From positions 1 to 39,293 of the forward strand of contig CAISJD010000002.1 of the NCBI GenBank assembly GCA_903885605.1: a stretch of DNA of 39,293 nucleotides, read 5' to 3'. Below are positions 16,046 to 39,293 of the stretch, piece by piece. Each line of letters begins with the position of its first letter. The stretch's first letter is position 1. This DNA is from an uncultured Chthonomonas sp. Lineage in GTDB: Bacteria; Armatimonadota; Chthonomonadetes; Chthonomonadales; CAJBBX01. Under the pieces are notes generated by a model that made no database searches, was not told the DNA's origin, and saw nothing but the letters and a program-made list of their open reading frames with translations. Both the position numbers and the translations under genes were made by a program.

Positions 16046-16479
16046 GGTGTGCGGCCTCCGGAAGTAGGTGCAGGCCGATTATACACCTGCGCTCGGCTGG
16101 ATGCGCGCTACCGGCGCCTGGGAGCGGGCACAAGGTCGAAGGCGCCGCGCCCGTGGAACCGGAACGCGCAGAACCTGATGCCCCGCCAGAGGACCAGGGA
16201 TGCCACTGACCTGTACCACGGAAGTGGCACTCTTGAACGGCCTGTCCCCAGACTGAGGTACCGGCCGGCGCACGCTCGCCACGGAACGGCTCACTGCCTC
16301 CCTGATCGGCTTGTGGGCAGCCGCCAGTGCCGCGGCCTCGCGATTGGCCGACGCCCGCACGTCAGCGCGGAAGGCCAGGCTGCCAACCGCTGGTGGGCGG
16401 TCCTGCGCGACACAGCATCGAGGGAGCATGTGCAGTAGCGCCACGCCTCACATCCATCGGCGGGCGCCACCCATCGTTT
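16046..16479. other. Gene-free stretch between purB and the VapB-like gene
   Basis: No convincing gene is seen. The stretch contains the purB -10 box, a perfect 7-bp inverted repeat (16201-16207 with 16223-16229) and the left copy of a 16-bp direct repeat (16301-16316). The CGCGCCCGTGGAAC string near 16147 also occurs near 37397, which may be chance. Confidence 0.45.
16078..16083 (-). promoter_or_regulatory. -10 box of purB
   Basis: Read on the minus strand this is a perfect TATAAT, 33 bp upstream of the purB start. No good -35 hexamer is visible 16-18 bp further upstream, so an activator or another feature may replace it. Confidence 0.5.
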
Positions 16480-16513
16480 TCCATGGAGCATGGGCGCTTC
16501 CATGGAGTACAAT
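16480..16513 (+). promoter_or_regulatory. Double-palindrome operator and -10 box of the VapB-like gene
   Basis: The perfect palindrome TCCATGGA occurs at 16480-16487 and 16499-16506, 19 bp apart. TACAAT follows at 16508-16513. Transcription would start about at A16520, the first base of the start codon, so the mRNA is probably leaderless; no ribosome binding site is present. Paired palindromes over the promoter are the usual layout for autoregulation by antitoxins of this fold. Confidence 0.6.
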
Positions 16514-16519
16514 GCAGCC

Positions 16520-16762
16520 ATGACAACCACCGTCACACGCAAGAGCATGGTCACCATCCCGGCTGAGATCGCCCGGCTCTACGACATCAAGCCCGGCTAC
16601 CGCCTGGACTGGCTCCCGAGCCCCGGCGCCGACGAGATCATTGTTCGGGTCGTGCCGGATCGCGCTGAGCTCGGGCGGCGCCTCAAGGGATCGCTCCGGG
16701 CGTTCTCACCCGGACGCGACGCCGTGGCCGAGTTGTTGGCCGAGCGCGATCTGGATGGCTGA
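16520..16762 (+). CDS. AbrB/SpoVT-fold antitoxin (VapB-like)
   Basis: An 80-residue DNA-binding antitoxin. The swapped-hairpin domain reads TVTRKSMVTIPAEIARLYDIKPGYRLDWL at residues 4-32, the classic AbrB/MazE pattern. The acidic C-terminal part, AVAELLAERDLDG, fits the segment that binds and blocks a VapC toxin. It should repress its own promoter through the two palindromes just upstream. ATG 16520 is preferred over upstream ATG codons, because the domain starts there and the -10 box lies 7 bp before it. The stop overlaps the next start by 8 bp, the normal arrangement for vapBC. Its toxin partner is broken, so it is an orphan or a decaying gene. Confidence 0.85.
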   Translation: MTTTVTRKSMVTIPAEIARLYDIKPGYRLDWLPSPGADEIIVRVVPDRAELGRRLKGSLRAFSPGRDAVAELLAERDLDG

Positions 16763-16904
16763 TCGCGGCCGGTACCTCCTGGACACGTCCGCGATCCTCG
16801 CCCATATGCGAGACGAGCCCGAGCCCCGGCGCCTCGGCCCTTGCTGCGTGCGGCGGCGCACCTGCGGGGGGGGTCCTTCAGCCCCTGGCGGGGCCTCAGG
16901 ATGA
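16755..16904 (+). pseudogene. VapC-like PIN-domain toxin, broken
   Basis: Only the first strand and helix of a PIN domain remain: RYLLDTSAILAHMRDEPE, with the first catalytic aspartate in LLDTS. The frame then runs into unrelated sequence and stops after 49 residues, while VapC proteins are about 130 residues. Downstream, another frame reads LLRAAAHLRGG, which would fit the next PIN helix, so at least one frameshift is likely. By about 16900 the similarity ends at the symmetrical repeat. The other catalytic acids are absent. It cannot work as an endoribonuclease as it stands. Confidence 0.75.
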
Positions 16905-16916
16905 CGTCAAGGCCGT

Positions 16917-17005
16917 GTCCGTGTTCGTCGGTGTCCGTCCGTGTGGGTCCGTGTGGCTTTTGCGGCGGCACGGACGAGCACGGACGAGCACGGACATCCA
17001 CGGAC
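16917..17005. repeat. Symmetrical repeat: four plus four heptamers at 10-bp period
   Basis: GTCCGTG-type heptamers start at 16917, 16927 (one change), 16937 and 16947. After a 15-bp centre (16954-16968) the reverse complement CACGGAC starts at 16969, 16979, 16989 and 16999. The two arms face each other and could form a long imperfect hairpin or a cruciform. It sits just after the broken VapC and looks like an inserted repeat element. Confidence 0.75.
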
Positions 17006-17149
17006 GCCGCCCAGCGCCGGCGCCTCCTGGGGCTCGGGCCCTCCTGATCGGCTTGTGGTCCGCCCCACGCGCCGAGAGGCACTCCCGGCGGGAAGGAGTG
17101 CGGGGCCTCCACATCGAACCTACCGGCACACGCTTCGGAGGGGACGCCC

Positions 17150-18208
17150 ATGATGACCTCGCACGAACGCTTCTCGCGCATGTTCGCCCACAAGGAGGCG
17201 GACCGCGTGCCGATCATCGACGGGCCGTGGGGCGATACCGTGGCCCGGTGGCAGCGCGAGGGCATGCCGACCGATGTCAGCTACGTCGACTACTTCGGGC
17301 TGGACAAGGTCGTCGGCATCGGGGTCGATAACGGCCCGCGCTGGGAGGGCAAGCGGCTGGAGGAGACCGACACCTACGTCGTCGACCTCACCTCCTGGGG
17401 CGTCACGCTGAAGAACCTGAAGACCACCTCCGTGCCGCAGTACCTCGACTTCCGCATCAAGGACCCGGACACCTGGCGCGAGGCCCGAGAGCGGATGATG
17501 CCCACCCGCGACCGCGTGGACTGGGCGCACCTGAAGCAGCACTACGCCTCGTGGCGCGAGCAGGGGTGCTGGATTCAGGGCCACCCCTGGTTCGGCTTCG
17601 ACGCCGCGCACTCCTTCGTGGACATGGAGGTGCTGCTGGAGGCCATGGTCGAGAAGCCCGAGTGGTGCGCCGAGATGTACAACCACTGCCTCGACGTGAG
17701 CCTGGCCCTGCTCGACATGGTCTGGGACGAGGGTTACACCTTCGACTCGCTCTTCTGGTGCGACGACATGGGCTACCGCAACACCCAGTTCTTCTCGGTG
17801 CGGTCCTACCGTGAGCTGCTCCTGCCGGCCCAGAAGCGCGCCGTGGAGTGGGCACACCGCAAGGGCATCGTGGCGCACCTCCACTCCTGCGGCAACATCA
17901 TGCGCTTCGTGCCGGAGCTGGTGGGCATCGGCATGGACGGCCTGAACCCGCTTGAGGTTAAGGCGGGGATGGACGCCGTCGGCATCAAGCAGCAGTTCGG
18001 AGACCGCCTGCTGCTCCACGGCGGCATCAACGCGGTGCTGTGGGACAAGCCCGACGAGATCGAGGCCGAGATGCGCAAGGTGGTACCCGCCCTGAAGCAG
18101 AACGGTGGCTACATCTTCTCCTCCGACCACTCCGTGCCCAGCAGCGTGAGCCTGGAGGACTTCCGGCGCATCGTGGAGCTGGCCAAGGAGCTGGGTAGCT
18201 ACGAGTAG
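17150..18208 (+). CDS. UroD/MtaA superfamily protein 1
   Basis: A 352-residue cytosolic TIM-barrel protein of the uroporphyrinogen decarboxylase superfamily. The N-terminal HKEADRVPIID (about 14-24) is the family's opening motif. H245 and C247 in HLHSCGN match the HxC zinc ligands of the MtaA/CmuA corrinoid methyltransferases and are absent from haem-type UroD. In place of the C-terminal cysteine ligand it has SSDHS near 324-328, so a histidine may be the third ligand. It is unlikely to make haem. A role in methyl transfer or in modifying the compound imported by the coupled transporter is an inference. ATG 17150 has GGAGGGG upstream. It is the first gene of a five-gene unit. Confidence 0.88.
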   Translation: MMTSHERFSRMFAHKEADRVPIIDGPWGDTVARWQREGMPTDVSYVDYFGLDKVVGIGVDNGPRWEGKRLEETDTYVVDLTSWGVTLKNLKTTSVPQYLDFRIKDPDTWREARERMMPTRDRVDWAHLKQHYASWREQGCWIQGHPWFGFDAAHSFVDMEVLLEAMVEKPEWCAEMYNHCLDVSLALLDMVWDEGYTFDSLFWCDDMGYRNTQFFSVRSYRELLLPAQKRAVEWAHRKGIVAHLHSCGNIMRFVPELVGIGMDGLNPLEVKAGMDAVGIKQQFGDRLLLHGGINAVLWDKPDEIEAEMRKVVPALKQNGGYIFSSDHSVPSSVSLEDFRRIVELAKELGSYE

Positions 18209-38828: not shown

Positions 38829-39293
38829 GGGCGGCTCCGCGGGCGGGCGTGTTCGCGTGGGGGCTGCACAGTCCGCGTGAGGCATGTGTGCATCGGCCGG
38901 TACTGCCGGTTGACGGTCGTGCTGAACGCAGTGCAGCACCCCGATCCCAGCGGTGCAGTGGCTTGCGTTGGTGGACCGGAGGCAGGCGCTGCGTTGCGCT
39001 CCGCGCCGATGCACGACGGTGCGGTGCCGGAGTCGGGGCCCTTCGCTTCGCTCAGGGCGACGGCGAGGGCGAACGGCGGCGCCGTTACCGTCGTGCTGGA
39101 CGCAGTGAAGCACCCCGACGCCTGAGCTACGGTGGCTTGAGTTGGTGGGCCGGAGGCAGGCGCCACGTTGCGCTCCGCGCCGATGCACGACCGCGCAGTG
39201 CCGGAGTCGGGGCCCTTCGCTTCGCTCAGGGCGACGTCAAGGTCAGGCGTTCCCTGCCCACGCTCCAGCCCCATGCCCTCACCGCCTGCCCGT
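38829..39293. other. Gene-free end of the window
   Basis: Open frames on both strands here are translations of repeated DNA and have no family features. The stretch contains the tandem repeat at 38916-39236. The last 57 bp hold nothing that I can identify. Confidence 0.5.
38916..39236. repeat. Two 147-bp direct repeats at a 174-bp period
   Basis: Copy 1 is 38916-39062 and copy 2 is 39090-39236, separated by 27 bp. The ends are highly alike, such as GTCGTGCTG at the start and the run CTTCGCTTCGCTCAGGGCGA at the end of each; the middle has more differences. The unit probably belongs to a dispersed intergenic repeat. It lies directly upstream of birA and could carry its promoter, but no promoter is clear. 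Confidence 0.8.

Follow-up and report, generated by a model that had tools for sequence, protein, structure and literature searches.

The array at positions 16917–17005 of the window (the whole stretch of 39,293 nucleotides analysed here) raises the question of what a mirrored set of short words, repeated at a fixed 10-bp pitch, might represent; a multi-protein binding site, a cruciform and a mobile repeat had all been suggested in a first-pass annotation of this DNA. On the basis of sequence comparisons within the genus and across the bacterial phyla, we regard the array, with moderate confidence, as a copy of a dispersed intergenic REP-like DNA element, whose unit would be a putative protein-binding heptamer, CACGGAC, presented at a 10-bp pitch on one face of the helix.

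Anatomy of the array and its surroundings

The window corresponds to contig C2 of its own genome (G000), an Armatimonadota MAG of 5.6 Mb. The mirrored arrangement of 4 + 4 heptamers that the first-pass annotation had described was confirmed in its coordinates: four GTCCGTG-type heptamers with 3-bp spacers are followed by a 15-bp centre and by four CACGGAC heptamers with 3-bp spacers, and a single heptamer among the eight is inexact. In the left arm (16917–16953), where CACGGAC is read on the minus strand, the units start at 16917, 16927, 16937, and 16947 and read GTCCGTG, GTCGGTG, GTCCGTG, and GTCCGTG, the second of them carrying the single mismatch. The right arm (16969–17005; plus strand) has the same 10-bp pitch and exact CACGGAC in all four units (starting at 16969, 16979, 16989, and 16999), separated by the spacers GAG, GAG, and ATC. 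The centre (16954–16968) is TGGCTTTTGCGGCGG in the window and mostly TGGGCCTTACGGCGG in the sister copies of a nine-copy alignment. With up to one mismatch allowed, 6 heptamer pairs at a 10-bp pitch were found in the window versus 0.03 expected, and 6 or more were found in none of 100 shuffled sequences; all 6 pair matches fall at this one place, which is the sole such array in the window.

The array is directly adjoined by a second dispersed repeat, which is palindromic (CCTTCAGCCCC...CTCAGGATGAC / CCTTCAGCCCC...TCAGGATGAC; 16850–16915) and separate from the array, and which occurs elsewhere in the same genome without it (e.g. on contigs C16 and C14). Of the 77 array clusters described below, 6 have the core of this second repeat within 80 bp, versus about 0.4 expected. 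Further upstream are an ORF for a MazE-type antitoxin (16502–16762) and a truncated VapC-like frame (VapC having been read by eye); this toxin frame (16757–16880) stops prematurely, immediately ahead of the repeats, as though its end had been replaced by the repeat cluster. The context downstream is a uroporphyrinogen decarboxylase-like (UroD-like) gene on the plus strand (17150–18208), which starts 144 bp from the array and whose name is derived from PF01208, matched in 5 of 104 flank genes from the genus, and from the start of the translation read by eye. A tandem repeat with a period of 174 bp and 1.8 copies is present near the end of the window (38916–39236).

Copies of the array in the genome and the genus

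A genome search for CACGGAC at a 10-bp period, as the first-pass annotation had proposed, identified 105 exact matches of CACGGAC-N3-CACGGAC-N3-CACGGAC in G000, and a further 33 and 83 in the congeners G001 and G002, respectively, while the reversed triplet used as a control had no matches. The triplet is thus carried by all three genomes of the genus, and it is absent from all 58 other relatives that were searched at the family, order and phylum levels. A sample of 557,116 bases from the genus, made up of the window and 58 stretches from the three genomes, yielded 77 clusters of at least three heptamers. Neither a single copy nor a decaying period, the outcome named beforehand as one that would speak against the array, was observed: same-orientation neighbours are spaced by 10 bp in 291 of 308 steps. 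A pitch of 8 bp (1-nt spacer) occurs in 9 of the 308 steps, so that strict helical phasing is not absolute; at L202, L241, L236:5069, and L247:6238 it is the outermost unit of some arrays that lies 8 bp from its neighbour (CACGGAC-A-CACGGAC). Tandem runs of an 8-bp GGTGAGGG type directly adjoin several arrays (viz. in the upstream flanks of L195, L200:5231, L211, L227, and L242).

The clusters are almost equally divided between those with a single arm (39/77) and those with both orientations (38/77), and where the orientation changes, the order seen in the window, GTCCGTG followed by CACGGAC, prevails (28 versus 10 transitions). Within the sampled part of G000, runs of two, three, four, five and six units number 6, 10, 37, 5, and 1, respectively; these 59 runs account for all but a few of the 65 runs of at least two units that G000 contains, a total obtained by subtracting the 105 triplets from 170 pairs. 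We also scanned the 557,116 genus bases and 17 orthologue stretches for other words repeated three times at pitches of 7–15 with differing spacers; when shifted readings of CACGGAC arrays were set aside, no other word was found at more than 6 places, in comparison to 88–89 places for CACGGAC and its sub-words.

Conservation of the heptamers and turnover of the spacers

Among nine copies of the window's subfamily (full-length, in-register matches of the window element, one-armed and out-of-register copies being left out), the letters that differ from the consensus number 3/504 in the heptamers, 28/162 in the spacers and 5/135 in the centre (heptamer versus centre, p = 0.013; spacer versus centre, p = 0.00016). 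A similar pattern is seen in nine arms at seven orthologous sites, where the heptamers differ at 5/231 positions, a conservation that is partly built in by the use of exact heptamers to find these arms, and the spacers differ at 34/72, in flanks that are mostly 80–97% identical. The spacers thus change faster than their surroundings, which indicates that units are exchanged, gained and lost while the heptamers are kept. A mismatch-tolerant scan of G000, which avoids the bias of exact heptamers, recovered 75 four-unit windows, of which 51 are perfect, 9 (including the left arm of the window's own array) have one mismatch and 15 have two or three mismatches; nine of these last 15 are intact arrays read one unit too far.

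The spacers are not entirely random in composition. Their third base is A in 55–61% of cases and rarely T (1% in the genus and, among the listed loci, 10% elsewhere), which suggests that the recognition word may extend past seven letters, to ACACGGAC. Adjacent spacers are identical more often than expected by chance, both in the genus (26/168 versus 10.9 expected) and elsewhere (51/188 versus 7.6, listed loci), and this excess indicates that some units arise by 10-bp duplication.

Occurrence in other phyla, viruses and plasmids

A scan of the GTDB species genomes identified at least 116 stretches carrying an array, from at least about 65 assemblies (counted by hand from their titles), and outside its own phylum the array is present in at least about 13 other phyla or classes. 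The matches listed include Lentisphaerae, Hydrogenedentota, Aminicenantes, Acidobacteriota, Sumerlaeota, Planctomycetota, Verrucomicrobia, Spirochaetota, Omnitrophota, alpha-, gamma- and delta-proteobacteria, Bacteroidota, Myxococcota, and WOR-3, and cultured Marinobacter strains (M. guineae and M. halophilus; loci L140 and L084) are among the carriers. The following counts are based on the 106 listed loci that were left once four loci from the same genus and six from actinobacteria, the latter including plain tandem repeats with identical spacers, had been dropped. At these 106 loci, 367 of the 428 steps between same-orientation neighbours measure 10 bp, three units prevail among the runs of at least three (78/129), and the mirrored clusters, among 125 clusters in total, have the order CACGGAC followed by GTCCGTG in 43 of 43 cases. 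In 20 genomes picked because they already held CACGGAC arrays, a relaxed triplet search (CACNGAN) gave at least 6 matches in 18, with a maximum of 269 in a Lentisphaerae MAG and 0 to 4 in the reversed controls. A search of 2.9 million viral contigs yielded 27 stretches, and no similar DNA was found in plasmids or phages.

Position relative to genes and neighbouring proteins

Most of the clusters in the genus (72/77) are intergenic according to gene calls made with our own codon-usage caller. They are placed mostly beside 3′ ends, the nearest gene end being a 3′ end for 52 of the 72 intergenic clusters versus 40% of random intergenic positions (p = 4e-8, a value that counts orthologous sites separately and is thus not fully independent).

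No recurrent family of neighbouring genes was found. Pfam and NCBIfam searches of 133 ORFs from other phyla (part of the 167 listed nearest ORFs, those left out including likely plain tandem loci and same-genus loci) and Pfam searches of 104 genus flank genes gave a maximum of 2/133 and 5/104 proteins, respectively, for any one family; hence, the gene neighbourhoods do not link the arrays to any binding protein. One candidate, the four-helix-bundle 23S rRNA IVP protein (PF05635), was rejected as a general partner, as IVP genes are present in many array-free relatives and as 20 other IVP loci, together with 10 Y1-transposase loci, have no 10-bp hexamer array. This candidate had been suggested by an IVP-like gene in G000 (L202:5317–5946) that is ringed by four arrays, arrays being also present at the orthologous site in G002 (L241). 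At L209:4417–5552, two arrays flank a pair of short frames that were missed by the codon-usage caller and that, judged by eye, resemble a toxin-antitoxin pair of the DUF433/DUF5615 type.

Mobility, empty sites and alternative explanations

The suggestion that the array is a mobile or dispersed repeat is supported by the many copies described above. As regards mobility and REARRANGEMENT, most full copies have both of their boundaries at most a few bases away from the outer heptamers, and near-identical copies are found in unrelated flanks. Two sites that are occupied in G000 (L210:4979 and L200:12121) are array-free in both congeners. In the counterparts of the first (L289 and L288), the same convergent gap is filled by a different short-period array with words like GTCCCATAG, and convergent gaps seem to be shared by several short-array families; in the counterparts of the second, the gap is without a larger repeat-rich stretch. 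At three sites (the window, L200:5231, and L236:13409), the sequences to the left and right of the array have their counterparts on different contigs, or at different places, in the relatives, and these breaks in synteny fall at or near the arrays, in genomes that are MAGs with several arrays near contig ends, so that mis-joins are possible.

An alternative is a selfish miniature transposon of the MITE or REPIN type, in which the arrays would be the ends used by a transposase encoded elsewhere, and in which the apparent constraint would arise because only intact copies are copied. We treat this explanation as a tentative possibility. The near-identical 89-bp copies that end at their outer heptamers in unrelated flanks, the two sites that are empty in both congeners, the avoidance of gene 5′ ends and an outer end (TTAGC|CACGGAC) common to copies from Aminicenantes and Acidobacteriota all agree with it. 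However, dead copies of such an element should accumulate, whereas few decayed old copies are observed; half of the clusters are one-armed and equally perfect; no target-site duplication was established; the genes for Y1 transposase (PF01797) and IVP are present in many array-free relatives; and no family recurs among the 133 + 104 flank proteins. Of the hallmarks of a MITE, inverted arms are present in about half of the clusters and empty sites exist, in which no clean duplication was read, and no parent transposon was found.

That the arrays act as a DNA or RNA hairpin behind genes, viz. as a bidirectional terminator, an mRNA stabiliser or a cruciform, we consider improbable. The window copy does fold strongly (z = –5.3 as DNA, and –3.9 as RNA over a longer stretch), 3′ ends are favoured, and among the 58 intergenic clusters that were typed, 16 lie between convergent genes. 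The cruciform of the first-pass annotation is possible for mirrored copies, but it is not the common feature, given the 39 of 77 genus clusters with a single orientation. The facing spacers give no sign of pairing (16/117 paired versus 39 in shuffled sequences), a difference that we do not claim as avoidance of pairing because half of the mirrors (7/14) derive from a single founder. A search of Rfam with positions 16400–17400 gave 6 sub-threshold matches and no family at the gathering score. Furthermore, where a one-armed array lies no more than 150 bp from a 3′ end, its word in the direction of the gene is CACGGAC in 12 cases and GTCCGTG in 11, and this unbiased orientation makes a directional RNA signal unlikely; together with the one-armed state of half of the clusters, it indicates that the arrays need not act as hairpins or at the RNA level. 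A plain, functionless tandem repeat grown by slippage, which would account for the excess of identical adjacent spacers in the genus and elsewhere, is very improbable, as the spacers vary and the heptamers do not, the run length in G000 peaks at four units instead of following the falling curve expected of slippage, and many phyla have the same word and pitch.

Comparison with known repeat systems

CRISPR arrays have repeats of 23–50 bp, unique spacers of similar length and cas genes, and they were ruled out by the 7-bp repeats and 3-bp spacers of the present arrays. The STRR heptanucleotide repeats are similar to the present arrays in being heptamer tandem units in intergenic DNA, but their units are contiguous and are known only from cyanobacteria.

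REP and REPIN sequences are dispersed, extragenic and lineage-restricted, occur in tens to hundreds of copies with predicted hairpins, and frequently form inverted pairs about a short centre (PMC3116915, PMC3733652). Our arrays resemble them in their dispersal, high copy number and intergenic location. The REP/REPIN unit is one palindrome of 20–40 bp with a GTAG or CGTC tag at one end, whereas that of our arrays is a 7-bp word repeated every 10 bp. No conserved GTAG/CGTC tag was found beside the outer heptamers in 93 genus runs and 127 runs from other phyla; a TTAGC end is present in 12 runs from Aminicenantes and Acidobacteriota. REP/REPIN pairs are better conserved than singles, whereas one-armed copies of our arrays are as intact as mirrored ones, and among the 9 four-unit windows of G000 that have one mismatch, 8 belong to clusters with both orientations (sorted by eye, the ninth, C160, being left out). 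No link to a RAYT (Y1) gene was detected, the two PF01797 matches of G000 (C201:65231 and C178:4214) both being distant from the listed arrays and the search in other phyla covering the nearest ORFs.

The closest published analogue found is the TAACTGA heptamer direct repeat of Beggiatoaceae, cyanobacteria and Bacteroidetes, which usually sits in a single orientation immediately ahead of a start codon (PMC4679880). This report describes short intergenic runs of an unvarying heptamer, present in distant phyla as if moved horizontally and associated with no known enzyme, as in our arrays. The anatomy and position differ: TAACTGA repeats apparently lack free spacers, whereas our arrays have free 3-bp spacers, mirrored forms, a location in 3′ flanks and an unbiased orientation.

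Lastly, ParR/parC (10-bp repeats), the omega heptads of pSM19035 and the 10-bp half-sites of the OmpR family are described as sites where one protein is bound side by side, and in iteron-type arrays the affinity depends on the number of units (PMC5016525, PMC7380067). These descriptions match ours in short words at about one helical turn, a geometry that known proteins use; none of these proteins is proposed as the reader here. The iteron-type arrays in these sources are found at one or a few sites beside their own operon or promoters, whereas dozens of dispersed sites are found here, and, unlike a ParR/parC-like centromere, which lies beside the gene of its binder, the arrays had no recurrent flank family among the 133 + 104 proteins.

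Functional and evolutionary significance

Binding by several protein molecules, the first of the functions suggested for this locus, is the one that we prefer as a plausible candidate, because the heptamers are kept while the spacers drift and because the pitch is 10 bp. In such a mechanism, one protein would read the heptamer, the 10-bp pitch would set the units on one face of the helix so that three or four monomers could stack, and mirrored copies could hold eight. Copying or recombination would carry intact arrays to tolerant sites behind genes, and the turnover of units within an array would scramble the spacers. More speculatively, the CACGGAC-N3 arrays may constitute the cis half of a new, horizontally spread system that organises or copies DNA, in which one protein family in some ten phyla would read the same 7-bp word at a one-turn pitch, three or four units would be kept per array, fast rewriting of the spacers would be tolerated or caused, and the arrays would provide dispersed sites for anchoring or recombination behind genes; this wider proposal is possible rather than probable.

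No published description of CACGGAC arrays was found in the open-licence literature searched. That one word recurs at one pitch in unrelated phyla, while the letters between its copies are free, is hard to explain without a reader protein. If the arrays are selfish instead, they would represent miniature mobile DNA outside the REP classes compared here. The arrays are natural probes, four heptamers fitting on a 37-bp oligonucleotide, and if a reader exists, it would represent a widespread family of DNA-binding proteins discovered from its site rather than from its gene.
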